IMG/VR virus record: IMGVR_UViG_3300020207_000069 | Location: 1 to 38,004 of that record | Direction: 5' to 3' (one strand) | Length of the DNA stretch: 38,004 nt | From: a virus | Shown: positions 2 to 31,556 of the stretch, piece by piece | Numbering within the stretch: the first letter of the stretch is position 1 | Layout: each line of letters opens with the position of its first letter | Translations under genes and position numbers: made by a program | Notes under the pieces: model-generated | What the model was told of the DNA's origin: nothing | Database searches by the model: none | Seen by the model: the letters and a program-made list of their open reading frames with translations, nothing else

Positions 2-3000
2 ACTAATACATTAGTAGTAAATCTTAATAAGCTGGCTAAGACAAAAGAATCTAATTTAACTACTGCTAATCCTATAGATTTTCTTTCTACAGATCAGCCA
101 GGCTTTAGAGGTATGAGAAGTACTATTAAAGCTATTGTGGAAGAATATGGGGCAAGCGTTGGTAGTACAGGATCTACAAGAAAACTTACAGCAGAGGGTA
201 CAACACAGTTTGAAACATCATTAAATAGTAGAGCTACAAGAGTAACTCAATTATTAAATGAAGCTAAAAGTTTAGATGATTTATTAGCTAACCCTGCTAC
301 GGCTAATTTCCATCCTGACAATAACCCTGCAATGGCAACAAACCCAATTATGAAATCATTATTCATAATGGATAAAGGAGCTATTGGTTATAAGTCTCGT
401 AAACAAGGAACTAAATTATATTTATTTAATGTAAGTGGTGTAACTGTTGAAAGACAGGATATTGTATTTAATGAAAAACTAGGTGCCGATGTACCGTTAG
501 GTCCACCTTCAATTTACGGAACTAAGAATATCTCTCTTGATGAATACACTAAATTAAATCAAGATATACATACATTGTTCCTTGGAGGATATGTAGAAAA
601 TGTTAGAGCATCTGATAAAAGTACATCACTAGCTTGGAAAGTTTCTGGTGAAAATGCAAACATTACTCCTGCAGATGTAATAAATAAAACTTATTTATAC
701 AAAGCTACTCAAGCTGTAGTAGACATTTTAGCTGGTGAAATAGCTACAATGAGTAAATACTATAATGCTGAATTAAATGTATTTGACTCTAAGGGCAATC
801 CTATTAAGCTTAATGAATGGCAATTCTTTTCAGATGATGTTTTAATTGATTCTGATACACGAAGAAGACTTAATGGGTTTATTGGTGAAGCTGAGTACAA
901 TGCGGCTGAACTAAGTCAAATGATAATGAAGGAAATGCCTGAAGTTAGAGAAGGTATTGAAGAAGGCATTCGTAGAAAAATTAGAATAGAGTTAGAAAAG
1001 CTTAATGCTATTATTGATAATAACATTGATCTTACAGGTAATGATATTGTATTAGGTAAAGATCTTAGAAGGAGTATTGAGCAAAGAGCTAAGTTACCTA
1101 GTAGGCCTGCATTAAAAACAGCAGTATTGACAGCATTCATTACAGAATCTATGATTCGTAATCATGCAATGTTTAGCATTACAAATGGTACATTAGCTAG
1201 CTACAGATCTGCAGATGATGTCATTAAGCGTAATACAATTACATCTACTGGTAATTCATTTCGTTCAGATCAAGCAGCTCAAGCATATATTAGTGCTCAA
1301 GGTAGATTATTAGAAGCTGCGTACTCTAGAAGAACCGGTAAGCCTGTAATGCCTAGAGATTACACAGGAGTTCTTAGAACAGCTATTCTTAAAGAAATGA
1401 CTATAGATGGTCAGAAGCTTAATAAAGAATGGTATGAGTTAGCTGAAAATAGTTTTAAAGCAGAAGGATATTCTCAAGAAGAAATAAATAATATTCTAGA
1501 GGCTTATCGTAGCATGGATGAAGCAGATGCTCAAGCTTACATTACTATGGATACTTATAGACAATTAAGTATTGCAAGTGATGAATGGACATCTGAACAA
1601 GAGTACATGTATAACAAATTGGTTGCTGGTGAAAACATTAACAACCCTCAGCAATATTTCCCAGTAAGAAAGTATCAATATACAGGACCGTTGCTTAATG
1701 CAGGAGCTCCTGTACAGGCATTGCATAAGTATTCATTATTTCCATTAATTCCTACTGTTATTTCTGGAACTAATTTGGAGAAGTTGAATAATGCAATGAT
1801 GGAAGCAGGCATAGATTATGCTACTTATGAAACAGGTAATAAAGCTGCAAGAGTTGGACAGCCTGTAGAAGCATTTGTAATTAATGAAGAGAATGGTGTT
1901 CGTACAGTTCCTGAAAATGTTGCATCTGATTTAAAAAATAATGTTAACCTAATTCATGTTGAATACTTAAGAGATCAGCTTAGAATTAATAATCAGTATA
2001 AAAAGTCTGCTACCTTCTCAACTCAGTTTAGAAAACTTCTTGGAGATGGTATTTATGAGAATGGTAAAGCTAAAAACAAAAAGTTAGCAAAAGCTCATGA
2101 AGCGTTTCTAAAAAATATTGATGATTTGATTGCTTATGAAACTGAGCAGTTAGAAAAAGAAATCAATACTAAAAAGAAATTGGTTTCTCTAATCAAGAAA
2201 GAGTTGCAGCGTAGAGATTTAGAAGACTATAAGATTGAAGCTATAGACATAGATCGTAATGGTAATCTTAAGTATAATTTAGATGCATTACCAGCAGCAG
2301 CAGAAATGGAAAAGATTTTAAATGCTGTTGTAAATAGAAGATTGATTAGAGCTAAGCTTACAGGTGAAGCTTTAGTACAAGTGTCTTCAGCTGGATTTGA
2401 AAAAGTTGAAACGTCTAATGATTTAAAATTCTATAGACCAGGGCAAGCAGCTCAAGTTAAAATACCTTTACAAGGAGAATACAGAAAGCTTTTGTATATG
2501 AAGCACCCTGATGGTAAGGCCATTAATTCTTTAGAAAGACTGAATGCTTTGTTAAAAGATCCTAAATGGATGAAAGAAAACAAAGCTCTTGTAAGTATGA
2601 CGGGTGTACGTATTCCAGTACAAGGTCTTAACTCTATGGAATTCTTTGAAGTTGCAGAATTCTTACCACCTGCTGGAGGAAATATTATTGTTGTTCCTAC
2701 AGAAATGGTAGCTAAGTCTGGATCTGATTTTGATATTGATAAACTTACAATGTATTTCCCTACCATTTTTGCAGGTAAGAGAAAAAATGCTAAGAGTAAA
2801 AAAGTAGATGCTTTAACAGATCAAATGTTAGACGCAATCTTTGGGGAAACTATTGAAGAAGGTGAGTATGTAGTAGAGCTTGATGAGCAAGGAGTTAATA
2901 AGTACAAGAATAATATTATTAACTTGTCTAGAGAAATTCTATTACATCCTGATAACTTCACTAAGCTTATTAGACCTATTGCTACAGACTTGGTTAAAGA

Positions 3001-5056
3001 AACATCTGAAGCTTATGCTGAGTTAGAATCTACAGAAGATGCGTTAAGCAAATCATCTGTATTTGATTACTCTTATAACTTAAAGAAGCAGCAAGAAAAC
3101 TCTATTGGTAAAAGAGCATTGGGTATTAGTGCTAAGGGCAATACTTATAACACAATGTTCCAAAAAGTTTCAAAAGAAATGTCTGATACATTTGCGTATC
3201 ATAGCGCATTTACGTCTTTGTATGGCTCTCCTTTTGTTTCTTTAAAGATGGCTGAAAATGTTACAAATGATAGTGGAGAGCCTATAACTATTAACTATAC
3301 AGTTTTCAACAAAAAAAGCATTCAACTACCATTTGGTAAAATTGGTGATCTAAAAGATTCTCAAGGTAAGCATCTTAAATCTGATATTATATCTCAGATT
3401 ATGAATGGTCACGTAGACGTTGCAAGTGATTCTTGGATCTTTAATATTGGTGCAGATGATGTAACAACCTCATATCTTTTAAATCTTATTGATATGGGAG
3501 TTAATTACGATTATGCTGTAAGATTCTTAAACAATTCTTTTGTACGTGAGTATTTAAATTTGTTTAGAGCTTTGAAAAAGAGTGATCTTAACAAGGCAAT
3601 TCTTCCTAATATGATGGAAGACTATACTGTTATAAATATGATGCTTAGAAAGCACGCTCGTTCTGAGTATGATATCATTCTAGGAAAGAAAGATAAGCAG
3701 ACTGGAGAATATCTTTATGATGATCAGGGTAATGTTGTAACAAGACCGCCCGGGACTAAAGATTTATTTCAAATAGTTTCTATATTAGAAGCTAAGTCTA
3801 CATTAACAGAAGACCAGCTTAAAAGCAATACAGATCTTTCAGCTCTTATGGAGTTCATGAAGTTTGTTTATTATGTTAAGCCAATGAAGTCAATAAGACT
3901 TACTACTGATGTAGATACAAAGAAATCTGCAACTTTTGTAGAAGCAGCCGCTGAATCAGAAAATGTATTTAACCTTACTACTAACCCTGTCACTAGTGAT
4001 TTTGTAGACCAGCTTTTGTCTAATAATGTTTTAGGTACGTTTGCAAATGTTAAAGATTTCCAGATGACTGCCTTTAATGAACTGTTTGGATTTAGAGCAG
4101 ATCGTACTTTCATTAAAAGTTTAAATAGATCAATAGCTTCTACAGATCTAGCTTATGATAAAGAGGGAAGAGAAAAATATATTGCAGCGGTAACAAATGG
4201 TTTTACAAGCTACTTAGTTAATCGTATTAGTTTTCCATTCACTTCAGAAAATTTTACAACTGTTAAATCTTACAAGGGTCTGCCTGTAAATTTTGTTAAG
4301 TTTGATAACAATCTTGCTGGTCAGGTTGCTATATCTAAAGATGGTGTAATCAATATAGATATTCAAAACCTTAATGCTAAGAGTGCGGCTTTGATGAATA
4401 AGTTTGATTTAACTTATCCTCAGCTATTATCTGTAGTATTAGAATCTCAATACATAAGAGCTACAGCAGAAGAGTCAGTTACAGATCATATAGAAAGAGC
4501 TATTGCAAATCTATATATTGATAAGCATCTTATTGACTTTACTAATCCAAATGGGGTTGCTCAAAAGTATCAAGAGATGATGGATAATAAAAAAGCTGTA
4601 GCTGCTCTAGAGGGGTACTCTATTGTAGAAGATCTTATAATCTATGATTACAATGGTGGTAAAATGATTGGTATTAAAACTGATCGTGCTAATGTTGAAG
4701 ACATGGAGCGTTACCATGCAGAAATTAAAATGCTGCAAGAGTCTGCAAATCCTATGGTAAGAGAATTCTTTACTAGATTGCCGCAAGTTGTTACATCTGT
4801 AGAAGGTTTTAAAAACGGAAGGTTCTCTCTAATTAATGTTGTACCTTTTGATCAGGTATCGCAAAAAGCTAATGAAGCAATTAAAGACTATAAGTCTCTA
4901 CCAGAAGAAATTAAAGAAACTATTATAGGTGACTACTTTAGTAAAACTAATGGGCCTATTCAAATGATAGAAGTTTCTGAAGAATTTGCTGATAGAACTG
5001 TAGAGCTTAAGACTGATGAGGAAGTTGAAGAATTTATTAAAAAGTGTAAAGTATAA
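2..5056 (+). CDS. virion-packaged DNA-directed RNA polymerase, crAss-like phage type (5' end outside window)
   Basis: Large single-chain RNA polymerase, inferred to be carried in the virion and to transcribe early phage genes after ejection, by analogy with gp66 of Cellulophaga phage phi14:2. The key sign is GSDFDIDK at 2720-2743: DFDID (2726-2740) matches the metal-binding DxDxD motif of double-psi beta-barrel polymerases of the YonO/crAss type. It is preceded by an RIPVQG...FLPPAGG stretch at about 2610-2690, as expected for this barrel. The first in-frame ATG is at 113, but the frame is open back to base 2 without a stop, so the gene starts upstream and this is only its C-terminal 1684 or so residues. 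It overlaps the next gene by one base (TAATG). Family call rests on the motif and its context; no second catalytic motif was aligned. Confidence 0.82.
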   Translation, partial: TNTLVVNLNKLAKTKESNLTTANPIDFLSTDQPGFRGMRSTIKAIVEEYGASVGSTGSTRKLTAEGTTQFETSLNSRATRVTQLLNEAKSLDDLLANPATANFHPDNNPAMATNPIMKSLFIMDKGAIGYKSRKQGTKLYLFNVSGVTVERQDIVFNEKLGADVPLGPPSIYGTKNISLDEYTKLNQDIHTLFLGGYVENVRASDKSTSLAWKVSGENANITPADVINKTYLYKATQAVVDILAGEIATMSKYYNAELNVFDSKGNPIKLNEWQFFSDDVLIDSDTRRRLNGFIGEAEYNAAELSQMIMKEMPEVREGIEEGIRRKIRIELEKLNAIIDNNIDLTGNDIVLGKDLRRSIEQRAKLPSRPALKTAVLTAFITESMIRNHAMFSITNGTLASYRSADDVIKRNTITSTGNSFRSDQAAQAYISAQGRLLEAAYSRRTGKPVMPRDYTGVLRTAILKEMTIDGQKLNKEWYELAENSFKAEGYSQEEINNILEAYRSMDEADAQAYITMDTYRQLSIASDEWTSEQEYMYNKLVAGENINNPQQYFPVRKYQYTGPLLNAGAPVQALHKYSLFPLIPTVISGTNLEKLNNAMMEAGIDYATYETGNKAARVGQPVEAFVINEENGVRTVPENVASDLKNNVNLIHVEYLRDQLRINNQYKKSATFSTQFRKLLGDGIYENGKAKNKKLAKAHEAFLKNIDDLIAYETEQLEKEINTKKKLVSLIKKELQRRDLEDYKIEAIDIDRNGNLKYNLDALPAAAEMEKILNAVVNRRLIRAKLTGEALVQVSSAGFEKVETSNDLKFYRPGQAAQVKIPLQGEYRKLLYMKHPDGKAINSLERLNALLKDPKWMKENKALVSMTGVRIPVQGLNSMEFFEVAEFLPPAGGNIIVVPTEMVAKSGSDFDIDKLTMYFPTIFAGKRKNAKSKKVDALTDQMLDAIFGETIEEGEYVVELDEQGVNKYKNNIINLSREILLHPDNFTKLIRPIATDLVKETSEAYAELESTEDALSKSSVFDYSYNLKKQQENSIGKRALGISAKGNTYNTMFQKVSKEMSDTFAYHSAFTSLYGSPFVSLKMAENVTNDSGEPITINYTVFNKKSIQLPFGKIGDLKDSQGKHLKSDIISQIMNGHVDVASDSWIFNIGADDVTTSYLLNLIDMGVNYDYAVRFLNNSFVREYLNLFRALKKSDLNKAILPNMMEDYTVINMMLRKHARSEYDIILGKKDKQTGEYLYDDQGNVVTRPPGTKDLFQIVSILEAKSTLTEDQLKSNTDLSALMEFMKFVYYVKPMKSIRLTTDVDTKKSATFVEAAAESENVFNLTTNPVTSDFVDQLLSNNVLGTFANVKDFQMTAFNELFGFRADRTFIKSLNRSIASTDLAYDKEGREKYIAAVTNGFTSYLVNRISFPFTSENFTTVKSYKGLPVNFVKFDNNLAGQVAISKDGVINIDIQNLNAKSAALMNKFDLTYPQLLSVVLESQYIRATAEESVTDHIERAIANLYIDKHLIDFTNPNGVAQKYQEMMDNKKAVAALEGYSIVEDLIIYDYNGGKMIGIKTDRANVEDMERYHAEIKMLQESANPMVREFFTRLPQVVTSVEGFKNGRFSLINVVPFDQVSQKANEAIKDYKSLPEEIKETIIGDYFSKTNGPIQMIEVSEEFADRTVELKTDEEVEEFIKKCKV

Positions 5057-11798: not shown

Positions 11799-12700
11799 TG
11801 AATGCTTTAGATGGTATATCTCTTCGCAGTAGAATCTGTCTACTGTGTGCAACTATAATCATGATGACATTCTTTGTCTTCAAGACTCTGGTTGTATTTA
11901 GGTATATACATCACAGCACCTTTACACACTACTTTGAATGGTTGAGTGTAATTGCGTTTATGCCTCCGTTCTTTATGGTTGTAAAGGAGTTTCTACAGAA
12001 CAAAGAAATTATTAAAGAAGATTTAGGTAAGAAGAATATATATCTAGAGCATGCTGCTAAGATTATTAGACATGACATGCACAGTGGTATCAATACTTAC
12101 TTACCTAGAGGAATCAAATCTCTTAATAGGAGATTGACTGAAGAGTCTATTAAAGACTTAAAGATTGGGGCCCCGCTTCAGTTAATTACTGACGGTTTGC
12201 ACCATGCACAAAAAGTATATGCAGGGGTATTTGAATTTACCAATCTGGTAAAAGAGAATGCACAATTAAATAAGGAAGTAAAAAACATAAAAGAAATTCT
12301 AGCAGATTATCTCAGGCTGACAGCATACAAAAACCAAGTGATCTTAGACGACAGCCTGGATATTTCTTTTGAAGTTAATGAGCCTTTGCTCTGTACCGCG
12401 TTAGATAATTTTATCCGTAATGGATTAAAGTATAACGATAATGGTACAAAATATGTAAAGCTTAGTATAGAGCAACACTTTACTAAAGGTTTATCTCTGG
12501 TTGTAGAAGATAACGGTAGAGGATTGACTTCAGAAGAGTTCATAGAACTCAGTAAACCATACGTAAGAAAAGAAGGACAAAAGGAAAGTGGCACAGGATT
12601 GGGACTCAACATCTCAATTGCCATATTAAAAGAACATGGTTTTAATGTACGCGCTGAGAAAAGAGAAGAAGGTGGTACAAAAGTAATTATTGAGATATGA
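11798..12700 (+). CDS. membrane sensor histidine kinase
   Basis: A 300-residue two-component kinase that would autophosphorylate on His and pass phosphate to the receiver protein encoded immediately downstream. Seen: membrane helices at about 12-36 and 47-66 joined by a loop of about ten residues; an H-box AAKIIRHDMH with His92; a kinase domain with N-box DNFIRNGLKYN (203-213), G1 box DNGRGL (238-243) and G2 box GTGLGL (265-270). There is no PAS, HAMP or periplasmic sensor domain, the layout of intramembrane-sensing kinases, so the stimulus is probably membrane state or a membrane protein. It is coupled on both sides (TAATG with the membrane protein before it, ATGA with the receiver after it). 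All core catalytic motifs look intact. Histidine kinases are rare in phage genomes. Confidence 0.9.
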   Translation: MNALDGISLRSRICLLCATIIMMTFFVFKTLVVFRYIHHSTFTHYFEWLSVIAFMPPFFMVVKEFLQNKEIIKEDLGKKNIYLEHAAKIIRHDMHSGINTYLPRGIKSLNRRLTEESIKDLKIGAPLQLITDGLHHAQKVYAGVFEFTNLVKENAQLNKEVKNIKEILADYLRLTAYKNQVILDDSLDISFEVNEPLLCTALDNFIRNGLKYNDNGTKYVKLSIEQHFTKGLSLVVEDNGRGLTSEEFIELSKPYVRKEGQKESGTGLGLNISIAILKEHGFNVRAEKREEGGTKVIIEI

Positions 12701-13134
12701 TTGATACATTAATGCTGATAGATGACGAGAATCTATTTCACTTGGTATTTGAAGATGCTTGCAGCATGTTAGATATAGCACTCTCTATAGAGTCATTAGA
12801 CAGCTCAGATGAAGCTGACAGAAAATTTAAAGCATGGTTTCCGGATGATCCAGATCATGAAAGACCTCAGTGTGTCTTTGTAGATCTTAACATTATTGGT
12901 TCCAGCTTTGATGGAATTGAGATGATTAGAAAGATTAATAATGATTACGGTAACGGTTGCGTTATTGGTATCATTTCTAGTTCTTCTGATAATGAAGAGA
13001 TTGAAAAAGCTAAGGCTGTAGGCGCACAGTTTTGGATTATTAAGTCTGATGACATTGAGCCTAGACTAGAAGAGTTCCATAAAGATTACGAAGGGTATGT
13101 AAATAAAACTAACCCTTTTAAAGTATATAGATGA
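12697..13134 (+). CDS. stand-alone response-regulator receiver (CheY-like) protein
   Basis: A 145-residue REC domain without a DNA-binding or enzymatic output domain. Seen: acidic pocket Asp9-Asp10 (LMLIDDEN), phospho-acceptor Asp63 in VFVDLN (60-65), a Ser run at 94-97 at the Thr/Ser switch position, and Lys116 in WIIKSD. These are the full conserved set of an active receiver. The short C-terminal extension (about 130-145) ends KTNPFKVYR. It overlaps the kinase by ATGA, so kinase and receiver are almost certainly a cognate pair made in step. With no output domain, signalling would go by protein-protein contact; the next gene product is the obvious candidate partner. Confidence 0.88.
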   Translation: MIDTLMLIDDENLFHLVFEDACSMLDIALSIESLDSSDEADRKFKAWFPDDPDHERPQCVFVDLNIIGSSFDGIEMIRKINNDYGNGCVIGIISSSSDNEEIEKAKAVGAQFWIIKSDDIEPRLEEFHKDYEGYVNKTNPFKVYR

Positions 13135-15831: not shown

Positions 15832-17832
15832 TTAAAATAATCCAAGCTGCCTAACTTTTTGAATAATACTATTGATTTCTTTTTCTATAAGAGATTTATA
15901 GTATTGGGTATCAACGTCATACTCATTCCAAGATTTATCTTCTATAACATTATACATAGTCTGCAAGTATTTACCTGCAACTAATTGCTGTTCTCTTCCA
16001 TCTGGGTTAGTCTTAAAAAGCTTACCACCCTTTTTACTTACATAGTATCTAATAGTCTTTTGGAGTGGTTCTACATGATGTTCTCCGTCCTTTACAGAGC
16101 GTATCTCCAGTTTCCAGTCTCCTTTAGCTTTAGTTCCTATGCAGTAGTCTAATATGTTCCTATTCTTTCTAAGGAATTCATCTGGTAATGTACCATGTAT
16201 GAAGTAACTATAGATTGCTTTAGGGACTATTAGTTTTGATTTATTCTTATGAAGAGCTAAGCCTTTAAATTCAAATCGGCCTTTGCATTTTGCACTAGCG
16301 TGTAAGAATTTACCTCCTGTAGCTTTAAATAAATCATCAGGGTTAGTTTGTTTAAGTTCTTTCCAGGTTGGATAGTCAAGTTCTTTCCAATCATATACAG
16401 CAATGTAATTGTTTACATCTGCAAATATGATCTTCTGATACTTATCGTGTTCAAGATTTAACTGCGTAATCTTTTCCCAGCGTTCACATATTTCATAATA
16501 CTTGTCTTCATACTCTCTAGGTATAATTGTTTCAAGACCATCTGTGTTCTGCATAATAGGTGTGCAGTTTGGGATCTCTTCACAAATCATTTCATATAGC
16601 ATAGTTAGACTAAGTTGACCATTTACAGTAATCCTCATTGTAAATTCAGGATCATATAAGAAACTGTGAGCATCATTACTAAGTCCGTAAGTTGAGTTAA
16701 GAATAATCTTATAAACATAATTCATAGGATTACTCTTTGGAATCTTCTTACGCTCATCAAAGAACCATTCATATAGTCTGCAGAAGTCTTCTTTAGGAAG
16801 GTGTTCTGGTGACCATTTATTACGAATAGCTAAGTTGGGATAGTATGATGTAACATCTGAAGACATTATTACATAGTCTTCATCACTCTTATAGATACCT
16901 TTTGTATTAGCACCATGAACACCACCTAGACCATAATCTGTTTTAACTCCTTGATAGTTAACAGAATAAGATAGTGCGTTCTTAGTACCAGACTTATTGT
17001 TAGGATCTGTATTTAGAATTTTACTTTTAAAGAAATTAAGCAGATCATTGAACTCAGGTGTTTTAAATTCAATGTATGGTAAGATTAGATCTTTAATCTT
17101 AATCATAGGACGCGGTGTCCGCATCTGCTTTAATTCTTTTTTATCTATACCAAGTGTGTCACTTAGATAGTAAGCAAATAATTCTTTACTAATACGTGGT
17201 TCTGATGCACTGTATAAATCAATATTATACTCATCAGTTAGAGTACCTCTTAATGATATCTGTTGCTTACTTAACTGCATTATAGCTTTAGTACTAGCAA
17301 CATCATTAATACAATACTCTATAACCATGTTCAGGTCATCAGTATTTGTAATAGGCTCAGAGTGATGGAGAGGCATATCTAAGACGTTATGCCAATCCAT
17401 ACTATACTGTATCCATTTTAAAGAAGATCGTTTAGCAGGATTGTCCCAGTGATTTAATTTAAATACATCTAGCTGACGTATTTTCATTTTGTAGGGACTG
17501 TACTTAGGAAACATCTTGTTTCTAGCAAGATCAATTGTATCCTGAGCAAACTGATATATAGCTTGTGCTATAAAGCTTCCATCTAATTTTCTTAATTCAA
17601 AATGGTTATCAAGAATAAACTCTGTTACCTGGGCATCAAAAGCTAAACCGTTGTAAGAAACATGCCATTCATTGTTTGCTATATTGTCTTTCAGAAAGTC
17701 AATGAAAGCAGGAAAGTCATTGCGTAAACTACATACAGCAAATACTTTAGTTTCATCTTCTTTATAATGTTCAAATACAGCTACAAAACAATCAGCTAAT
17801 GTTTCATAGTCCATTACCCAGTGCCCTCTCAT
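15832..17832 (-). CDS. family B DNA polymerase with 3'-5' exonuclease
   Basis: 666-residue replicative DNA polymerase. Exonuclease motifs: DYE (Asp8, Glu10), YNGLAFD (Asn61, Asp66) and YCIND (Tyr173, Asp177). A YGLGGVHG motif (300-307) matches the YxGG link between domains. Polymerase motif A is SSDVTSYYP (Asp326), motif B is KIILNSTYG (375-383), motif C is QNTDG (428-432). Motif C has Asn429 where most family B enzymes have the first Asp of DTD, while the second, Asp431, is kept. It is shorter than cellular enzymes, as in other phage PolB proteins. It is the last large gene of the replication block, one base after the 161-residue gene. Confidence 0.92.
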   Translation of the reverse strand: MRGHWVMDYETLADCFVAVFEHYKEDETKVFAVCSLRNDFPAFIDFLKDNIANNEWHVSYNGLAFDAQVTEFILDNHFELRKLDGSFIAQAIYQFAQDTIDLARNKMFPKYSPYKMKIRQLDVFKLNHWDNPAKRSSLKWIQYSMDWHNVLDMPLHHSEPITNTDDLNMVIEYCINDVASTKAIMQLSKQQISLRGTLTDEYNIDLYSASEPRISKELFAYYLSDTLGIDKKELKQMRTPRPMIKIKDLILPYIEFKTPEFNDLLNFFKSKILNTDPNNKSGTKNALSYSVNYQGVKTDYGLGGVHGANTKGIYKSDEDYVIMSSDVTSYYPNLAIRNKWSPEHLPKEDFCRLYEWFFDERKKIPKSNPMNYVYKIILNSTYGLSNDAHSFLYDPEFTMRITVNGQLSLTMLYEMICEEIPNCTPIMQNTDGLETIIPREYEDKYYEICERWEKITQLNLEHDKYQKIIFADVNNYIAVYDWKELDYPTWKELKQTNPDDLFKATGGKFLHASAKCKGRFEFKGLALHKNKSKLIVPKAIYSYFIHGTLPDEFLRKNRNILDYCIGTKAKGDWKLEIRSVKDGEHHVEPLQKTIRYYVSKKGGKLFKTNPDGREQQLVAGKYLQTMYNVIEDKSWNEYDVDTQYYKSLIEKEINSIIQKVRQLGLF

Positions 17833-18324: not shown

Positions 18325-18864
18325 TTAATTTTTAGAGTTAAGTTGTAAAGTTAGTGTTTCTTTTTGAAGATCTGGTTTATCACAGAGTTCAATAGCTGCT
18401 TCTAGCTGTGATTCTTTGACATTCAGTATTTTAGCATACTCATCATAGTATAATTCTGGATACAAATAGCTTTCTACATATTCTGTTACAGCATCGCCTT
18501 GAGAAAAGAAATCTAATATCTTTTGCTTAAAAGGTTCTGAAAATCTAGAATATTCTCCAATCAAGAATGACATAAAATCAGGTTCCATACTGGAAAAATT
18601 AAAAACTAAATATACATAGTCATCCGTCATATACTCATCAAAATATAATTCATGCCCTCTCATTTTTAATAAATGATTATTGAATGCATTACTATCAAAT
18701 AATGCATATTCACAAATAAGTGCACAGCTAGCAGGATGAATATGATCTTTAACTGCAATGTAGGTTTCTGATGGTTTATATCTTATACCACGTTGCATTC
18801 CAAGTTGGGGATACAAAAAGAAATTACTCTTCTGCACATACTTAGGAAATATTTTATCTATCAT
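18325..18864 (-). CDS. hypothetical 179-residue protein
   Basis: Unrecognised soluble protein, rich in Tyr, Phe and acidic residues (ELYFDEYMTDDYVYLVFNF, about 72-90), likely mixed alpha/beta with a helical C-terminal third (about 120-175). It overlaps the nuclease gene before it by 4 bases (ATGA), so it is translated from the same message as that nuclease and may be its partner. Confidence 0.6.
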   Translation of the reverse strand: MIDKIFPKYVQKSNFFLYPQLGMQRGIRYKPSETYIAVKDHIHPASCALICEYALFDSNAFNNHLLKMRGHELYFDEYMTDDYVYLVFNFSSMEPDFMSFLIGEYSRFSEPFKQKILDFFSQGDAVTEYVESYLYPELYYDEYAKILNVKESQLEAAIELCDKPDLQKETLTLQLNSKN

Positions 18865-19796
18865 AACATTATACGTTCAGGTTGACAAAACTGATAGGGC
18901 ACGTCATACTTTACATTTTCAATATGATATACAGCCTTATCATAAGCTTCTTCAAATCTTTCTAACCAGCTGGTTATAGTATCTTTTGAAACTCCAAAGT
19001 TGTAAACCTGTTCGTACTTGTCAATCACCCAGAAGCTGTAAGATACTTTGTCTACTGGTATATTGTAGATCTTACTTGCTAAGGTAACATAAATAGCAGC
19101 TTGTAACCAATAGTTATAAAATTCTATTGTATCTGGAAAGTCACTGATTGTTTTACCTGTAGTTTTTACATCTATAACTTCAGCGTTTCCAAACTCATCT
19201 ATTACAAGTCTATCTAAAATACCTTTAAGGCCAAACATTCCTTTGTATTCTTTGAGATCCAGTGGAATCTCATTCATTACTTTATATCCATCTGAAGAAG
19301 TTAGTTCTAGATGTTGTGCAATTGTAGGTTCATCTCTCATAACCTGAGCATATGCTTTACATCTTTCTACCATGTCTTCATCTACAAGATCTTTACCTTC
19401 TCTATTAAACAAGAATGTAAAATAGTTTTTGGCATCTTCTGTGCAGATTTTTTCTAGACGTTTTTCATCTTCCTTAAATGATTGATATAAGTTCTGGGAT
19501 TGTAACTCACTGAGTATCAGGTCATGATGGTCTTCTAAATTAGAAGAACCACCATTAACCTGCGTGTACAGCGAGTGTAAAATCTTCAGTACGTTAGCTG
19601 TTGGTACTTTACCTGGTGCTACAGTAAAGAGATTTTTAAACTCTTCAGGCTGTAGTATAAAGCAGTGTACCAACTTACCTTCTACTAGATATGATTCAAT
19701 CTTCTCTTCTCTCTCATTAAGAATGTAGTGAGAGTAAAACAGTTTAGGACTGAATAACATCTTATTAATTGAACTATAGCTTAGATCTAATTTCAT
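18861..19796 (-). CDS. PD-(D/E)XK exonuclease, DUF3799 type
   Basis: 311 residues. N-terminal SYSSINKMLFSPKLF (6-20) and EGKLVHCFILQPEEF (39-53, with His44) are the entry motifs of the DUF3799/RecE-like PD-(D/E)XK nucleases. The catalytic core is GILDRL (Asp195) and VIDVKTTGK (Asp209-x-Lys211), followed by an amphipathic helix with YWLQAAIYV (229-237), which carries the QxxxY-type motif. It should digest or process DNA ends, in recombination or in host DNA degradation. It overlaps its neighbours by 4 bases (downstream gene) and 23 bases (upstream gene). No iron-sulphur Cys cluster like that of Cas4/AddB is apparent. Confidence 0.85.
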   Translation of the reverse strand: MKLDLSYSSINKMLFSPKLFYSHYILNEREEKIESYLVEGKLVHCFILQPEEFKNLFTVAPGKVPTANVLKILHSLYTQVNGGSSNLEDHHDLILSELQSQNLYQSFKEDEKRLEKICTEDAKNYFTFLFNREGKDLVDEDMVERCKAYAQVMRDEPTIAQHLELTSSDGYKVMNEIPLDLKEYKGMFGLKGILDRLVIDEFGNAEVIDVKTTGKTISDFPDTIEFYNYWLQAAIYVTLASKIYNIPVDKVSYSFWVIDKYEQVYNFGVSKDTITSWLERFEEAYDKAVYHIENVKYDVPYQFCQPERIML

Positions 19797-20880
19797 TGTA
19801 TTCTTCTGGTAATGTTAATCCATCAATTGTAATCTTGTAAGTACTATGAGTGACAGACCAGTTATTATTTATTTCATCTACCTTATCCTCCATAAATACT
19901 TTCAAACCTTTTGGCGTAAGCTTATTATTATCTAACAAACCTTTGAGTAGTCCCGCATTAGTGTGAACATTATATGATCTTACTTTTTTCTTTATAGCTT
20001 TAAAACTAGCAGCAGAATATACTTTACTATAGCGCATCCAATCACTATGTTTATACCATAAGAATAATAAAAGATCTTCATGCTTTTCCCAGCTGTATCC
20101 AGAAAGGGTACTCATAGCCAACTCTTTATCATCATCAGAACCCTTCATTAGCTTTTGTATGTTAACAAAATCATCATATGTAGCAACGTTATCTTGTGAT
20201 ACTAGACTAATAAAAGCTTCTTCAGTAAGAACATTTCTACGATTTTTCCAAAGACTCTGTAAAATTTTATTATTCTTTTCTGTAATATAACCTTTTACTA
20301 AATTAGGATTAGACCAGCTACCAAGAGAATTAAATAAATCCAAATGCTTTTTCTCTTCAGGATTATTCTCGTCTAAGAAGTCATTTAGATATGAAGTAGT
20401 TCTTGTAGCAATTTCTGTATCAGATACAGAGCTGTATTGTACTATTAAATTTCTTTGATCTTTTATTTCATCTAAAGGTGTTGTCCAATATCTGTGTTTC
20501 AATTTGTAATTGACACATAGTGTTTCGTAGTTATCAATTATATAATCAAAAGCATCTAAAAGATCCGCACGGTTTACTACAAATATTCTACTGTATGGAT
20601 CAAATTCAAATAAAGACTGAAGATATTTAAGGCTAATTACAACTTTATCAGCTGAATCAACCTTACGAGTTTGAGTTATTTTAAAATCTTCTTTAGCCTT
20701 TGAGATATGATCTCTCGTTACAGTAGAATTTGGATAGAAGTATACAGAATCTGGTTTCTTTAAAACAGTTCTTACATTGTTTATACCATTAAGAAAATTG
20801 CTAAATACATCTTCTTCAGGTTTGTGGGATATATGAACATATACCCCACCTGTTTCATTAACTAATCTGATTTTTTTCAT
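19774..20880 (-). CDS. unknown protein, paralogue of its upstream neighbour
   Basis: 368 residues, no recognised family. Two stretches resemble the gene just upstream: residues 44-82 (SVYFYPNSTVTRDHI...SADKVVIS) match the spacing of the BRCT-like stretch in the neighbour, and 244-278 (LMKGSDDDKELAMSTLSG...HEDLLLFLWYKH) line up with MISSRNDEDTKLANHMIG...HLMTWKFCREL. The two genes therefore look like diverged tandem duplicates. It lies between the AAA+/VWA pair and the nuclease and overlaps the upstream gene by 23 bases. A role with the AAA+ ATPase or in DNA transactions is inferred only from position. Confidence 0.65.
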   Translation of the reverse strand: MKKIRLVNETGGVYVHISHKPEEDVFSNFLNGINNVRTVLKKPDSVYFYPNSTVTRDHISKAKEDFKITQTRKVDSADKVVISLKYLQSLFEFDPYSRIFVVNRADLLDAFDYIIDNYETLCVNYKLKHRYWTTPLDEIKDQRNLIVQYSSVSDTEIATRTTSYLNDFLDENNPEEKKHLDLFNSLGSWSNPNLVKGYITEKNNKILQSLWKNRRNVLTEEAFISLVSQDNVATYDDFVNIQKLMKGSDDDKELAMSTLSGYSWEKHEDLLLFLWYKHSDWMRYSKVYSAASFKAIKKKVRSYNVHTNAGLLKGLLDNNKLTPKGLKVFMEDKVDEINNNWSVTHSTYKITIDGLTLPEEYNEIRSKL

Positions 20881-21871
20881 GTAAATTTTCTTTTAAAAGA
20901 TTTTTGTATTCTTCTTTCATCTCAAACTTTACAAACCAAATACCTGGATTATGTAGTACACGAACTCTTTGTTGTAGAGATTTGTGTAAATACGCAAAGA
21001 TTTCAGGTGTAAGACATTTCTTAGCTTTACAGAATTCAAAGAACTCTGTTTCATTATAGTGAGCATACTTTTCATATACATCATTAAGAAATTCTCTTAC
21101 AGCTTTCATTCTTCTGTTGAGGTACCAAACGTTACCGCCAGCGTATAGCTCTCTACAAAACTTCCAAGTCATAAGGTGTGAAGCTTTATAATCAAACGTA
21201 CCAATCATATGATTAGCAAGTTTAGTATCCTCATCATTACGAGATGAAATCATTCTACATACAGCTTTAATATTATCATCTGTAAGTTCTGTAATAGAAC
21301 CGCTTGCAATACCTAAGTCATAAGGTGTAACCAGTTTATTAGGATAGTTCTTTATAACTGCTAGAGCTACTAAAGCATTATCATCATATAGATTTTTACT
21401 TGTATAGTTCCATTCAGCATGTTCATTTAAAATGTTTTGCTCTACTAAGATATTTATAAAGCCATTCCAATTAGGATACTTTAAATCAGATGTAATTATT
21501 ATAGTACTTTGTGAATCATTAAATTCAATAGCATTTTCATAATATACTTGAGAATCAAACACAGTGTTATCTATTACAATATGATCAGCTTTATCAGCGT
21601 CTTTTGTAATTTTACCACCCGCCATTTGTATGTAGGCTTTGATGTTAGAATAAGGAGTTTTTGTACCACCTACAATAAAGTATCTATCTTTTTGTTTGTA
21701 AGTAAATGTCTTTGATTTTATATCCGTCTTTTTATCACGGATGGATCTTAGATTATATCTAGGTCTTTTTAGAGTTGTATCTAAATAACCACTAGGTGCA
21801 TGATAGTGCTTATAAACTTTGGGGCTGGCTATTGCCAACCCCTCAGTTACTAAATCTTCAAATGTTTTCAT
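20858..21871 (-). CDS. unknown protein with BRCT-like stretch, next to the MoxR ATPase
   Basis: 337 residues. Residues about 63-101 (RYFIVGGTKTPYSNIKAYI then QMAGGKITKDADKADHIVI) follow the BRCT pattern: a beta strand, a glycine turn, a helix ending in GGK, a second strand, and a hydrophobic thHlV-type strand. The rest is helical, with a Lys/Arg-rich part near 245-300 and a paralogous match to the downstream gene (206-240). Its start overlaps the stop of the AAA+ gene by one base, so the two are co-translated. BRCT domains bind phosphopeptides or DNA ends; here the assignment is by eye and unproven. Confidence 0.6.
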   Translation of the reverse strand: MKTFEDLVTEGLAIASPKVYKHYHAPSGYLDTTLKRPRYNLRSIRDKKTDIKSKTFTYKQKDRYFIVGGTKTPYSNIKAYIQMAGGKITKDADKADHIVIDNTVFDSQVYYENAIEFNDSQSTIIITSDLKYPNWNGFINILVEQNILNEHAEWNYTSKNLYDDNALVALAVIKNYPNKLVTPYDLGIASGSITELTDDNIKAVCRMISSRNDEDTKLANHMIGTFDYKASHLMTWKFCRELYAGGNVWYLNRRMKAVREFLNDVYEKYAHYNETEFFEFCKAKKCLTPEIFAYLHKSLQQRVRVLHNPGIWFVKFEMKEEYKNLLKENLHEKNQIS

Positions 21872-23127
21872 TATTCAGTTATCATTTTAGAGATTTCTGG
21901 ATTCATTACAAGCTTCTGGAACTTAGTACGGTTACCGTTAATAATAGTACGTGCAATCATGTACTTGTTATCCATAGTAAAGTAGTCTGAAGTAAGAAGC
22001 ATAGTAAGTCTATCAATTAGATTCTTGTCTACAGTATTATTCTTAGAGTAGAGTAATGTGTAGTTAGCAAGACGCGTTGATAGAATAGATGTAATTGCTG
22101 CAGATAACTCTCCATCACTGTCTTTAACAGAGCTAGATAGTTTAGACTTCATAGTCTTTTCTTCAGCAGTCAACATCTCTTTAGGATGAATCAGCTTATC
22201 TAAGTTATTGTGTATGAACGTAGTAAATGTAGTAGAGAATGCTTCTCCTACAGAACCTTCACCAATCATCTGTACCATAGGTAGATGTTTAGAGAAGTCA
22301 TCAAAGCTTGAAATAGCATTAAAGAATGTAGTAATAGATCTTGCATTACATTCTGGTGTTACCATTTCTGGATAACGCAGCATGAAGTTAATACAACGAG
22401 AATCTACACCTGATTCTTCTGCCCATTCAGCCCATGTATCTACATTAAATTCTAGATTAGCAGAAATGAAACGAGTCTTTTGTGCTGCATCAATAGAATT
22501 AACCATGTAGTTACCATCATCAGGATTAGCAGTCAAGATAATGTGCCAGTCCTGTGGTAATGACCAAGAGATATAAGTCTGTCTGTCAACAAGTTCCATA
22601 ACAGCTTGAATAAATCTAGGGTCTGCACGATTCCAGTCATCAAGCAAAAGGATACCACCTTTAGTTTTACCTGCAATCCACTCTGGCGGTAAGTAAGCAG
22701 TACGCTTTTTCTTAGTCATTTGCCAACCATTATTAAGGAAGATCTTAACTGCTTCAGCATCAACCCACTGACCTACTTTTTTAGAAGAACCTGCAGCTGC
22801 ACTACTGATAGCATCTGCAGCATTAACAGATGAGAAGTTTAGCGTCTCACCTTTCTTTACTGCTACTTCCTTAACCATGTAGTACTCTTTAGTAGAGAAA
22901 CCTACAAGATCACCTAGCTCTTCAATCTGTGCAAGATTAAGTTTTACAAGATCTAGATTATGTTGTTCTGCAATTTGATAAATACTAGTAGTTTTACCAA
23001 TACCTGATTCACCAATAACTTCAACAGCTACAGGGTTCTTGCCCTCACTTTGTAGTTGTCTATTAGTGGTGATAACATGATCCATAAAGGATTTTAGTTC
23101 ATTTGTGTTTAGAGTTACTTGTGCCAT
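21871..23127 (-). CDS. MoxR/CobS-like AAA+ ATPase
   Basis: 418 residues. Walker A GESGIGKT (39-46), Walker B GGILLLDD (157-164) followed by WNRADPRF, the MoxR/CobS-type continuation, sensor 1 ILTANPDD (197-204), then DAAQKTRF with the arginine-finger region. The C-terminal half is a helical lid plus about 150 extra residues. MoxR-type ATPases act as remodelling chaperones paired with VWA proteins for metal insertion or complex assembly, and the gene directly upstream encodes such a VWA protein. The leader is A-rich (ACTAAAAAGAAA before ATG). The target of the phage pair is unknown. Confidence 0.85.
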   Translation of the reverse strand: MAQVTLNTNELKSFMDHVITTNRQLQSEGKNPVAVEVIGESGIGKTTSIYQIAEQHNLDLVKLNLAQIEELGDLVGFSTKEYYMVKEVAVKKGETLNFSSVNAADAISSAAAGSSKKVGQWVDAEAVKIFLNNGWQMTKKKRTAYLPPEWIAGKTKGGILLLDDWNRADPRFIQAVMELVDRQTYISWSLPQDWHIILTANPDDGNYMVNSIDAAQKTRFISANLEFNVDTWAEWAEESGVDSRCINFMLRYPEMVTPECNARSITTFFNAISSFDDFSKHLPMVQMIGEGSVGEAFSTTFTTFIHNNLDKLIHPKEMLTAEEKTMKSKLSSSVKDSDGELSAAITSILSTRLANYTLLYSKNNTVDKNLIDRLTMLLTSDYFTMDNKYMIARTIINGNRTKFQKLVMNPEISKMITE

Positions 23128-23134
23128 TTTCTTT

Positions 23135-24289
23135 TTAGTTTAATTTAATTTTGTAACCGGGTAATTCTTCATTTATTCTAGATCTAGATGAGTGACACCA
23201 TAAAGTTCTTTTAGGACAGTCCTTTGGTGGTGGTGCTTCACCATCTGTTAAATAAATGAGTGTAGTATATTTTCTACGATTTTCATTATAATAATCAATC
23301 ACGGGCTGAAAGGATGTGCCTCCCCTACCATGTACTTTAAAATCCTTTTTAGGATTAAAGGGTTCAACGCTTTGGATTTTAGTATCACACTGGATGATAT
23401 CTACATAACTACCTGTCTTATTAATGTGATGTATTTCATTAAGGAACTCCTTAACTTCATTATCACTTACAGATCCAGATGTATCAATAGCTACTAATAC
23501 ACTGTTTCTATATTTAATTTTAAGACCTGGGTTATCAGGATATCTTTTGTTAGGCTTGCGTCTAAGAATTCTTGTATAAGACTTAATAGATGACCCAACA
23601 AATCTTCTGAGATAACCTTTCCAATCAAATTTTGGAGGTTCAACATGTCTTAATCTTTCAATAAGACCAGAAAGCTCACCAGGTATATTACCCTGTGACT
23701 TTTCTATTTCATCTGCAATAGTTGTAAGCTGATGTTCTACTTGCTTTTCAATAAGTTTCTTTTCAGCTTCACTAAGATTTTCAAACTCACCCCAAGAATG
23801 GTTGTTTGGACCGCCTTCAGATAACATATTCTGTAGATCTTGATCGCCATTTTCTCCTTTATCTCTTTCTTCTTGTAAAAGTTTATAGTACTCTTTAGTA
23901 CCTGCTTTAAAAGGAAGATTTAGATTAGGAAAAGAATCCATAGTAATACCACCTTCTGGTAACCATGAAGGAAGTATGTACTGATTGATCTCTAGATCTG
24001 CAGCTATGTTAAATAGTTCTTTGTCTGCGTAAGAATCACGCATTGTAAGGTGTCCAAAAGCAATATGAAGTAGCTCATGTTTAATCAAACCTTTTCTATG
24101 TAGTTCATTTAAACTATCAAAGAAGTCAGGATTGACTACAAGCTTTACTCCAATACCATCTTTACCAACACCAGCTGTAGGTACGTCACTGCTGAAGGAT
24201 CTGTTAAGACTTGACATAAAATGCCCATAGTAGGGCTCATCAAATAACAAATCCTTACTTACGCGTGACAGCATTTTCATGTCTGCCAT
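23135..24289 (-). CDS. DUF2201-type protein: metallopeptidase-like domain plus VWA domain
   Basis: 384 residues. N-terminal part: HELLHIAFGH (71-80), a zinc-binding HExxHxxxxH motif, with IAADLEIN (95-102) as in the putative metallopeptidase domain of DUF2201 proteins. A Glu/Lys-rich linker spans about 135-215. The C-terminal VWA-like domain has a MIDAS: VAIDTSGSVS (266-275), GRGGTSFQP (321-329, Thr325) and YLTDGE (346-351, Asp349). All metal ligands of both domains look intact. It is the expected partner of the MoxR-like ATPase encoded 7 bases downstream. Such pairs occur in bacteria and in some large phages, but their phage role is not established. Confidence 0.85.
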   Translation of the reverse strand: MADMKMLSRVSKDLLFDEPYYGHFMSSLNRSFSSDVPTAGVGKDGIGVKLVVNPDFFDSLNELHRKGLIKHELLHIAFGHLTMRDSYADKELFNIAADLEINQYILPSWLPEGGITMDSFPNLNLPFKAGTKEYYKLLQEERDKGENGDQDLQNMLSEGGPNNHSWGEFENLSEAEKKLIEKQVEHQLTTIADEIEKSQGNIPGELSGLIERLRHVEPPKFDWKGYLRRFVGSSIKSYTRILRRKPNKRYPDNPGLKIKYRNSVLVAIDTSGSVSDNEVKEFLNEIHHINKTGSYVDIIQCDTKIQSVEPFNPKKDFKVHGRGGTSFQPVIDYYNENRRKYTTLIYLTDGEAPPPKDCPKRTLWCHSSRSRINEELPGYKIKLN

Positions 24290-24305: not shown

Positions 24306-24674
24306 TTAGTCTAGAACGCGAATAATTACGCCAGGATTATCCTTGCTGTAACTGTGTTCTTTAAAGTACGGAATCATAATACTGCAGTTGTCATCTTCTA
24401 ACCAACCTGCATGTACCAGTTCATCTTGAATAGTTTGAGCCGGATTTATATAGTCAAACTTATGTTTAGTTCCACGTATAAATTCCATTTCAATCTTTAG
24501 AGGTAATGGCTTATCCTTAATGTATTCTACAAAGTCATCTTTGTATTTTTTCCATATAGGTTTAGTAAGAGCTTTCCATTTTTGTGTAGACTTGCTTGCA
24601 ACAAAGTACTTGCCTGTCCACACTCTAGAGTTCTTACTAGAAGGTACATTATATGGGATAAACCACTCTTTCAT
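24306..24674 (-). CDS. rusA: RusA-like Holliday junction resolvase
   Basis: 122 residues, the usual RusA size. Seen: a beta-strand start with IPYNVPSSKNSR (6-17), a basic patch SKSTQKWKALTK, then the acidic catalytic region KFDYINPAQTIQDELV and WLEDD, carrying Asp residues in the D-N-x-K-x-x-x-D...DD order of the family. It should cut four-way DNA junctions formed during recombination-dependent replication. It overlaps the primase gene by 4 bases and precedes the VWA gene by 16 bases. Confidence 0.8.
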   Translation of the reverse strand: MKEWFIPYNVPSSKNSRVWTGKYFVASKSTQKWKALTKPIWKKYKDDFVEYIKDKPLPLKIEMEFIRGTKHKFDYINPAQTIQDELVHAGWLEDDNCSIMIPYFKEHSYSKDNPGVIIRVLD

Positions 24675-25663
24675 TTAGTCAAAGATAGAGCTTTTCTTAA
24701 TATAGGTGTTAACGTTTGACGAACAGATTCAACGCCATGTACAGCAACACTATCAGATAAGTCTTTCATCATCGGTAAGATAGCTCCTGGTATACCATAT
24801 TCATCTAGGTATTTTTTAGCAGAAGCTTTACCCGCACTATCTGTATCAAATAGTGTGACTACTCCTTTATATCTCTTTAAGAATGTTTCTATGTACATGG
24901 GTTTGATCATAGTATTTTCACTATCTGGTGCGACAGTTTCTATATTTTTGTAATCAAGTTCTGTTAAACACATACAGTCTTTAAGAGAAGAGCATATTAC
25001 TAGATAAGGTTTCTCGTATGTAAGTTGATTAAGTCCCTGCAGATAATCCTGTAGTTTCATAAACTTATACTTTTTATTCTGAGGCTGATAAACTTTATAT
25101 AGTTCATCGTCTGCAGTAAAGTATCCATACATATGTGAATGACTTATTACAGAATGTTTAGTTCCTTGATTAGTTTCAGTAATTAGTTCTATAGAGTCTA
25201 ACGGTTTAACGTTGAACTGATTTAGAGTTTTACTACTGATACCATAAAAGGTCCAATATTCTTTATCTAGCTTATTCCATCTTCTTGTTTCTATGTTACC
25301 TACACCAAACTTTGTTTGATCATTATACTCTCTTTTAATTACACTGCCACCATGTTTAGTTACATAAGCATTGTAATCATTTATTACCATCTGGATAGCT
25401 TCTTTTATAGTTAATTCTTTCATATGCATGAGCAAATTAACACCATCACCTTGATGATTTGTAGAGAAACATTTATAACGATAGTCATTATAATTCTCTA
25501 CATAATAAAAGTACATTGAAGGAGTTCTTTCTGAAGGATTAAACATAGAAGTGACTTGAACTCTCTGACCATTAAGAGGTTCAGGGAGGTTAAAGTAATA
25601 CTCAAATACCCAACGACTGGGTACTTGACGTATATCATCTATTATGTTTTTAGTAGAAAGCAT
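24671..25663 (-). CDS. DnaG-like Toprim primase
   Basis: 330 residues. The N-terminal part resembles a primase zinc-binding domain (NPSERTPSMYFYY, CFSTNHQGDGVNLLMHM) but the Cys/His ligands are mostly missing: only Cys65 and His70 are near the expected places. The Toprim domain spans about 218-300, with YLVICSSLKD (220-229) and FDTDSAGKASAKKY (272-285), whose DxD binds metal. It would make RNA primers for PolB, with the DnaB-type helicase of the same block. It is the first gene after a terminator at 25698-25725, but no good promoter was found there. Confidence 0.85.
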   Translation of the reverse strand: MLSTKNIIDDIRQVPSRWVFEYYFNLPEPLNGQRVQVTSMFNPSERTPSMYFYYVENYNDYRYKCFSTNHQGDGVNLLMHMKELTIKEAIQMVINDYNAYVTKHGGSVIKREYNDQTKFGVGNIETRRWNKLDKEYWTFYGISSKTLNQFNVKPLDSIELITETNQGTKHSVISHSHMYGYFTADDELYKVYQPQNKKYKFMKLQDYLQGLNQLTYEKPYLVICSSLKDCMCLTELDYKNIETVAPDSENTMIKPMYIETFLKRYKGVVTLFDTDSAGKASAKKYLDEYGIPGAILPMMKDLSDSVAVHGVESVRQTLTPILRKALSLTK

Positions 25664-28773: not shown

Positions 28774-29318
28774 ATACCTTCTTTTATAAATTTCTCACAC
28801 CATGCTGATAGCTCACTGTTCTGACCCTTCATAATAAAGTTTGTAAGCTTCATTACATATGTATAATCATTAATGCTTTCATAGTATCTGATATATAGTT
28901 TAAATCCACCAGCTACTTCATTCATGGTATAATTATACTTATTAAAAAAGATTCTAAGCTTTCTTAGAAGATCTGTTTTACTGCAACGTAAGTTACCTGT
29001 CTTAGCACTTTCTTTAGGATATCTATTAAGTATAGCATCGGCTAAGTCACTTAACTTATTTTGATCATACTTCTTATCATCATCTTTAGACTCATTAAAT
29101 AATGTGTCTGTATACTTAATAATCTGTTTAGTACTTTGAGTAGGCTTCCAACCGTTTTCAGTTTTAATAAGAAAGTTCTTACTGTGTAACCGATTAAGGT
29201 CAACTGAAAGATTGGGATCTATTAATATACCTTTGGCTATAGAATATAACATGGCATATTCATCTGGAGATAACTTCTTAGCCACCAGATAGCTGAAAAA
29301 GAGAGTTTGTTGGCTCAT
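28770..29318 (-). CDS. hypothetical 182-residue protein between DnaA-like and DnaB genes
   Basis: Unrecognised and mostly helical. The first 65 residues (SPDEYAMLYSIAKG, DLNRLHSKNFLIKTENGW) read like a small winged helix, and the C-terminal half repeats short helices (KTDLLRKLRIFFNKY, YVMKLTNFIMKG). Its position between an initiator-like protein and the helicase, with 4-base overlaps on both sides, would suit a helicase loader or replisome organiser. That is inference; no ATPase motif is present. Confidence 0.6.
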   Translation of the reverse strand: MSQQTLFFSYLVAKKLSPDEYAMLYSIAKGILIDPNLSVDLNRLHSKNFLIKTENGWKPTQSTKQIIKYTDTLFNESKDDDKKYDQNKLSDLADAILNRYPKESAKTGNLRCSKTDLLRKLRIFFNKYNYTMNEVAGGFKLYIRYYESINDYTYVMKLTNFIMKGQNSELSAWCEKFIKEGI

Positions 29319-29926
29319 ATGGCTAGGTTCTTATATCTTTTAACTAATTCTTCTAACTTATTATTTCTATCTACAATAGTATTATACTGTTTGTAGATTG
29401 CATTTAACGTGTTTTTATTTTCTTCTAACTCACTCTTAAGTCTGAGATTTTTAGATTCAAGTTCTGTAATATGACTACGATATACTTTAACTACAGAATG
29501 ATAGTTCATTTCAATAGAGCTTAATTCCGGAAGTTTAAAGTCTCTTAACTCATATTCATCTAAGGTATCCTTAACCATTTTTTCTACATCCATGTAGACA
29601 GCTTTATATTCTCTGTCATAACGGTAATTCATTTCATGCAGCTTCATTGCATGTAATACTGTAGCGTGGTCTTTATCAAATATTTTACCTATATCATTTA
29701 ATGACAATCCACCATGAGTTCTCATTGCAGTCATAGTAGCATGTCTAAATCTTACATTTCTTCTTTGCCTGCTATTAGTTATTTCAAATTCTTTAGCAAT
29801 TGATTTCCAAAGTCTTAATAATACTCTGAACTCTGTAACAATTTCAATTTGCTTTTCACTGTATGAATTTCTCATATTTTGTTGGTTTTGATAGGATAAA
29901 TGCAGGAGCTTTTGTATATTATACAT
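29315..29926 (-). CDS. DnaA C-terminal-domain-like DNA-binding protein
   Basis: 203 residues. Residues about 57-115 match DnaA domain IV, the helix-turn-helix that reads DnaA boxes: RHATMTAMRTHGG (61-73), LSLNDIGKIF (74-83) and DHATVLHAMKLHE (86-98), the counterpart of the DHTTVLHA signature. The AAA+ module of DnaA is absent. The C-terminal 50 residues form a coiled coil (SELEENKNTLNA...NNKLEELVKRY). A second start at 29875 (Met18, MRNSYSEKQ) has a better A-rich leader (CAAAACCAACAAAAT) and may be the true one. It heads the replication block. Inferred role: origin recognition or transcriptional control. Confidence 0.82.
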   Translation of the reverse strand: MYNIQKLLHLSYQNQQNMRNSYSEKQIEIVTEFRVLLRLWKSIAKEFEITNSRQRRNVRFRHATMTAMRTHGGLSLNDIGKIFDKDHATVLHAMKLHEMNYRYDREYKAVYMDVEKMVKDTLDEYELRDFKLPELSSIEMNYHSVVKVYRSHITELESKNLRLKSELEENKNTLNAIYKQYNTIVDRNNKLEELVKRYKNLAI

Positions 29927-30839: not shown

Positions 30840-31556
30840 CTACCAATTAATACTTGGCAACTCCTGTGAAGCCAAGATTTCATTTACTTTATTAAAGCAA
30901 TCATTACAATCCCACTCATGCTTTGCAGCATAAGCAGCACTTGCAGGGTGACTTGCTTTTATAATATTGTCAGTTTCTAATAGATCTTCCCATTGCTCAG
31001 CTTTCTTACCTAATAATAAGTAGACTAGATTGGGCTTATTTATAGATAATTCATTAAATAAGTGGGCCATAAAGTACTTCCAATGCTCTTGATGAGTACC
31101 GGGTTTACCTATTCTAGTAGTAAGTGCAGTATTAAGTAATAATACACCCTGGTCTGCTAAGTATTGTAGATTTTGTACACTTGGTTGTGCATTTTCTACA
31201 GTATTTTGTATAGCAGAGTGTATATACTGTAAAGATTTTTCTGTTCTATTTTGTCTACTACAAGAGAATGCAAGACCATCTGCTACATTTATTTGTGGAT
31301 AAGGATCTTGACCTACAACTACTACTCTTACATTATCATAATGACATTCTTCAAATGCTTTGAATACATATTTAAATGTAGGTGTAAACCTATGTCCAGA
31401 TTGAACCTCTAGTTGAAGTTTATCCAGTAATTCTACAAAGTCATTAGATTTAATAAACATTCTAAGTACTGTATTCCAACCAGTTGGTTCTAACTTTTTG
31501 TAAATTTTATCAGCAAACTCCCTAGAGTTTACTATATTAGCTTTAATATTATTCAT
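30840..31556 (-). CDS. ung: uracil-DNA glycosylase, family 1 (Ung-like)
   Basis: 238 residues, close to the 220-230 of bacterial Ung. Seen: the water-activating motif GQDPYP (82-87, Asp84; most Ung proteins have His at the last place), GLAFSC (94-99, Phe stacking on uracil), LLLNTALTT (139-147, substrate-binding Asn), and SHPASAAYA (202-210, catalytic His203), where the usual HPSPLS is changed. It would remove uracil from DNA. The divergent 91-residue gene starts only 5 bases away. Active-site variation leaves specificity open. Confidence 0.87.
   Translation of the reverse strand: MNNIKANIVNSREFADKIYKKLEPTGWNTVLRMFIKSNDFVELLDKLQLEVQSGHRFTPTFKYVFKAFEECHYDNVRVVVVGQDPYPQINVADGLAFSCSRQNRTEKSLQYIHSAIQNTVENAQPSVQNLQYLADQGVLLLNTALTTRIGKPGTHQEHWKYFMAHLFNELSINKPNLVYLLLGKKAEQWEDLLETDNIIKASHPASAAYAAKHEWDCNDCFNKVNEILASQELPSINW

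Follow-up and report, generated by a model that had tools for sequence, protein, structure and literature searches.

The stretch of DNA analysed here, referred to as the window, comprises 38,004 nt (IMGVR_UViG_3300020207_000069) and is a fragment of a marine crAss-like phage. It was placed among the crAss-like phages because the ORF at 113-5056 matches the RNA polymerase catalytic protein of Cellulophaga phage phi14:2; the ORF that follows matches an RNA polymerase subunit of crAss001 (E 2e-6). The reported interval, 21871-24289, is filled exactly by two adjacent minus-strand ORFs with 7 nt between them, coding for a DUF2201 protein and a MoxR-type AAA+ ATPase. The main features are the following:

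113..5056, plus strand: crAss-like RNA polymerase catalytic protein (phi14:2 g066, E 3e-26; DFDID motif)
15832..17832, minus strand: DNA polymerase, family B (phrog_1252, 2e-139; phi14:2 PolB, 2e-59)
18861..19796, minus strand: PD-(D/E)XK exonuclease (PF12705, 5.6e-11; phrog_412, 9e-21; phi14:2 orthologue, 1.3e-14)
19774-20880: gene without assigned function, downstream of the BRCT-like gene and next to the exonuclease gene
20858..21871, minus strand: fast-evolving gene directly after the ATPase gene, called BRCT-like below (sub-threshold BRCT match, E 0.0032)
21871..23127, minus strand: MoxR-type AAA+ ATPase, 418 aa (phrog_1297 'ATPase', 5e-35)
23135..24289, minus strand: DUF2201 protein, 384 aa (PF13203, 8e-20; PF09967, 7.2e-16)
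24306..24674, minus strand: RusA-like Holliday junction resolvase, immediately upstream of the pair (phrog_1682, 1.2e-15; phi14:2 orthologue, E 7e-52)
24671..25663, minus strand: DNA primase, upstream of RusA (phrog_12622, 2e-21; CHC2 zinc finger; phi14:2 orthologue, 1.5e-33)

Orthologues of the window's replication module (polymerase, exonuclease, RusA, primase, Sak4, DnaB, UDG and helicase) are present in phi14:2, several of them in the same order. The original prediction had located the pair inside this replication block, and the neighbouring genes agree: RusA is encoded directly upstream with primase beyond it, exonuclease and polymerase are encoded downstream, and two genes of no assigned function separate the pair from the PD-(D/E)XK nuclease gene. 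The DnaB, Sak4, primase, UDG, RusA and exonuclease of the module are retained in phi14:2, but searches of that phage found no match to either member of the pair, to the BRCT-like gene or to the unknown gene after it. Since phi14:2 keeps the module without them, the pair and the two genes that follow are best read as a lineage-specific insertion into, or loss from, a shared replication module.

Other genes of the window deserve mention. The orthologue of the phi14:2 uracil-DNA glycosylase (30840-31556, minus strand, E 2e-43) belongs to a PHROG family listed as unknown, and a gene at 29315-29926 (minus strand) codes for a DnaA C-terminal DNA-binding domain (E 4.7e-10), possibly that of a phage replication-origin binder. 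On the plus strand, a gene for a histidine-kinase-type ATPase domain (11798-12700; HATPase_c, E 5.6e-16) is overlapped by a response-regulator receiver gene (12697-13134; E 1.6e-7), together forming a phage-encoded two-component pair, which is unusual in a phage.

Domain structure, pairing and selection

The identities first proposed, a MoxR ATPase and a DUF2201/VWA protein, were confirmed by Pfam, phrog_1297, Midasin profile and NorQ fold matches. The DUF2201 protein is made of an N-terminal HExxH zincin-like domain (HELLH..H..D) and a C-terminal vWA domain with a MIDAS. The DUF2201 profile search recommended earlier placed both PF13203 (72.0 bits, cutoff 23.2) and PF09967 (58.9 bits, cutoff 26.4) above cutoff. 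The zinc motif and the complete MIDAS had been described as intact, and they are: H71, E72, H75, H80 and D98, as well as the MIDAS residues D269, S271, S273, T325 and D349, never vary in 23 proteins (the window protein and 22 homologues) drawn from phages and plasmids, 5 of them from plasmid records, with identities down to about 22%. The AlphaFold model (mean pLDDT 83) finds its best PDB matches in vWA folds, with solved relatives for the vWA part only. D98, constant and C-terminal to HExxH, may be the third zinc ligand, and together with H80 it fits a putative zinc site. Limited proteolysis is likely, because the catalytic Glu of HExxH is invariant. The label 'HNH endonuclease' attached to phrog_1314 was rejected, the Pfam match giving it no support; this label has been copied into many INPHARED/RefSeq phage records and looks like a propagated misannotation.

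The ATPase matches AAA_5 just above cutoff (E 1e-4), and its best PDB profile match is to the AAA domains of Midasin (E 1e-24). Its AlphaFold model has a mean pLDDT of 74, a moderate confidence; in a Foldseek search of solved structures it was best matched by the NorQ hexamer (1.2e-6), in a structure solved with the NorD vWA domain, and CbbQ2 was also listed. Walker A (GESGIGKT), the sensor-1 residue N201 and the arginine finger R219 are conserved. Walker B reads LLLDDWNRAD, and its second acid is Asp in all full-length members of the clade and also in two plasmid copies; it is Glu in N4, S-TIM5, AR9 and most other phage and plasmid copies. The original prediction of intact Walker A, Walker B and sensor motifs therefore holds for Walker A and N201 and needs amending for Walker B, which is DD rather than DE clade-wide. 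As the variant is fixed in the clade, the DD motif is probably functional, and the Asp may slow ATP hydrolysis. That the pair is active, as had been suggested, is plausible from these motifs.

The pairing itself is constant: as the claim of a gene pair would have it, every one of the 80 IMG/VR loci encoding a DUF2201 relative has the ATPase gene 3' of the DUF2201 gene, with a gap of less than 25 nt in 78 of them, and in loci L007 and L069 one or two small genes lie between the two. The RusA-DUF2201-MoxR arrangement is found between the primase and the exonuclease/polymerase genes throughout the clade. Between subclades the DUF2201 protein and the ATPase are about 60% identical, as is the polymerase, against about 22% for the product of the gene after MoxR. 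Both genes are under strong purifying selection, with dN/dS of 0.015-0.145 for MoxR and 0.05-0.16 for DUF2201, against 0.15-0.46 for the gene after MoxR, by a simple counting method and with dS high in places. Loss of the motifs in close homologues, proposed as the refutation of a selected function, was looked for and not found: the motifs are constant and both genes strongly constrained. In comparison with loci L003 and L004, dS is about 0.5-1.0 for DUF2201, MoxR and the next gene and 1.6-2.6 for RusA, primase and polymerase, as if recombination between related phages had swapped the block from DUF2201 to the next gene.

The BRCT-like gene overlaps the ATPase gene by 1 nt in the window, and the gap between the two is -1 to 4 nt in 48 of 48 loci. 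Its product is only 18-23% identical between subclades. A BRCT domain is possible, judging from a sub-threshold match in 6 of 24 orthologues, and no such domain came up when the PDB was searched with a profile; the gene is a candidate partner or client of the pair. Profiles of the other genes of the clade matched no gene beside distant pairs, and a universal ternary system was rejected, none of these genes being found next to the pairs of distant phages. Pfam, NCBIfam and PADLOC gave no match to VMAP, iSTAND, FtsH or effector domains in the genes at 20858-21871 and 19774-20880. Membership of a defence system was likewise rejected, the only match being to DolB at P-loop level (2.7e-4).

Occurrence in other phages and on plasmids

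Family matches were obtained in more than 430 sequenced phage records and in 106 plasmid records. Homologues are carried by the conjugative plasmid pRK1-1 of Cupriavidus, and in Paraburkholderia p1 type IV secretion genes are found next to them. In the tree, plasmid copies fall among those of phages: S-TIM5 groups with a Synechocystis plasmid (support 100/99) and AD45-P4 and Va1 with an Arcobacter plasmid (98/94), while the groupings of MTATph1 with Pontibacillus (93/89) and of phage G with Burkholderiales plasmids (86/83) are weaker. Single-protein scans of IMG/VR for distant relatives returned few loci (0, 1, 2 and 4), and no part of the diverse alignment was conserved well enough to serve as a scan query; this breadth therefore rests on annotated phages and plasmids.

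Annotated neighbourhoods were compared in a non-random set of about 14 phages and 8 plasmid records. The latter include pRBH2-3 of Acinetobacter baumannii, filed as a plasmid, which carries a phage-type RNA polymerase along with AAA and DUF2201 genes; it probably represents an N4-like phage and was not treated as a plasmid. In MTATph1, SCTP-2, Slicko01, PALS_2 and FBKp27 the neighbours of the pair belong to DNA metabolism; in S-TIM5 and CBB virion structural genes adjoin it. An early promoter precedes the ATPase gene of the pair in AR9, and late expression is the rule for AR9 virion proteins (41 of 43; PMC5312081). N4 gp24 and gp25 are two of the 14 core genes of the Schitoviridae and are found on middle transcripts; in the N4-like phage RPP1 a mid-phase structural module lies near gp24/gp25 (PMC4193335). 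The PA5oct ATPase carries an MS tag, and the virions of the Staphylococcus jumbo phage DC4 reportedly package a MoxR-like ATPase, with contamination possible (PMC10638138). A terminase search (PF03237) in the relatives found none and was of no help in mapping the structural module, and the CRISPRi-ART data held no entry for the genes of the pair under the terms searched.

A link between the pair and the virion-packaged RNA polymerases of N4, AR9 and crAss-like phages was rejected as a rule, phi14:2 having the polymerase without the pair; to our knowledge, S-TIM5, G and CBB are also at odds with it, having the pair and no virion-packaged RNA polymerase.

Pairs of this type are already known in phages, and the window locus adds a member from a crAss-like lineage. 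Iyer et al. 2021 (PMC7824862) reported MoxR and metallopeptidase-vWA pairs from jumbo phages of group 2.2. The window encodes the same pair, with an N-terminal metallopeptidase fused to vWA, but in a roughly 100-kb crAss-like phage and in a replication block with no known structural genes near. The gene order also differs, DUF2201 then MoxR here and MoxR then DUF2201 there; among the phages examined, the order of the window lineage is shared only by Alteromonas phage AD45-P4. Likewise, N4 gp24/gp25 are an adjacent AAA+ ATPase and DUF2201/vWA protein with the same catalytic residues, expressed in the middle phase, but the vWA proteins are 24% identical and the ATPases about 20%, the order is reversed and the N4 Walker B is DE. 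On plasmids, a homologous DUF2201 protein and an AAA ATPase recur in triads (Cupriavidus pRK1-1, Arcobacter p82 and Rhodovastum RHOApb) in which the ATPase and DUF2201 genes are separated by a third gene of about 300 aa, which in Cupriavidus is DUF3150-like; no counterpart of this third gene was found in the window phage. To what was known the present comparison adds the clade-wide position in the replication block, the absence from phi14:2, the interleaving with plasmid copies and the early or middle expression in AR9 and N4.

Possible roles of the pair

NorQ-NorD, CbbQ-CbbO and RavA-ViaA resemble the window pair in joining a MoxR AAA+ ring to a vWA partner; their clients are metabolic enzymes, and NorD, CbbO and ViaA are not known to have a protease domain. 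Midasin (Rea1), whose AAA domains match the ATPase and whose remodelling is MIDAS-dependent, differs in being a single giant eukaryotic protein that acts on ribosome precursors and has no HExxH domain. By analogy with these four systems, the MoxR protein would form a hexameric AAA+ ring and the DUF2201 protein would serve as its adaptor, the vWA MIDAS metal gripping an acidic residue of the client and docking it on the ring, so that ATP hydrolysis could strain or unfold it. The sequence motif suggests in addition that the attached zinc protease domain would make a limited cut in the docked client. In this phage, the context points to a phage or host nucleoprotein complex as the target, which would be dismantled or matured at the early or middle DNA-replication stage.

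That the pair is one such remodelling and cutting machine, working at this stage and not in particle building, is the interpretation we tentatively prefer, at somewhat less than an even chance. Action before particle assembly is argued from the position in the replication block and from the presence on plasmids; together with the absence from phi14:2 and the timing in AR9 and N4, these observations favour, and do not prove, an early or middle DNA stage over virion assembly. The action on host or replication complexes originally suggested is consistent with the same context. Not every gene that sits in a replication block serves replication, which counts against our interpretation, as do the structural neighbours in S-TIM5 and CBB, the RPP1 module, the DC4 and PA5oct ATPases, the Walker B Asp and a literature search that turned up no protease activity of a DUF2201 protein. 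A bolder version, in which an ATP-powered remodelling protease common to phages and plasmids acts early in replicon establishment on DNA replication or recombination complexes of phage or host, with the BRCT-like gene coding for a lineage-specific partner or client, is speculative and seems to us rather doubtful.

The foremost alternative, which we consider rather unlikely, is a virion-assembly chaperone and processing protease, the ring and adaptor folding or cutting structural proteins. It was proposed by Iyer et al. 2021 on the basis of Acidianus two-tailed virus, whose tail assembly requires a MoxR-vWA pair (PMC7824862). The S-TIM5 and CBB neighbourhoods fit it, as do the MoxR protein of DC4 virion preparations (PMC10638138) and the tagged PA5oct ATPase. 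It is harder to reconcile with the replication-block position of the clade, with middle transcription in N4 and the early promoter of AR9, with phi14:2, which assembles without a detectable pair, and with the homologues on conjugative plasmids, since a plasmid has no virion to assemble. The comparison points to an earlier, DNA-stage role than the published guess. In the literature we found no member of such pairs with a demonstrated function, and the family is widespread and core in the Schitoviridae, yet mislabelled as HNH endonuclease in databases; N4 gp24/gp25 in laboratory E. coli and AR9 in B. subtilis offer tractable systems for deciding the question.

Besides this DNA-stage role, the occurrence of the pair in both phages and plasmids, which are all invading replicons and whose copies interleave in the phylogeny, also suits a host-takeover or counter-defence protease, which would free the incoming replicon by unfolding and cutting a nucleoid, transcription or defence factor of the host. 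The early promoter of AR9 and the patchy presence between related phages agree with such a function. We nevertheless judge it unlikely: the pair is among the slowest-evolving genes of its block, unlike most host-targeting genes, it is core across the Schitoviridae despite their differing hosts, and its defence-family match (DolB) stays at P-loop level. Finally, a pure MoxR-vWA chaperone with a non-catalytic zincin domain and a structural zinc site would agree with the action of other MoxR-vWA pairs without a protease, and with literature and structure searches that found neither demonstrated protease activity nor a solved structure for any DUF2201 protein, but it is improbable: zinc bound for structure alone would make no demand on the catalytic Glu of HExxH, yet this residue is constant in 23 of 23 proteins.
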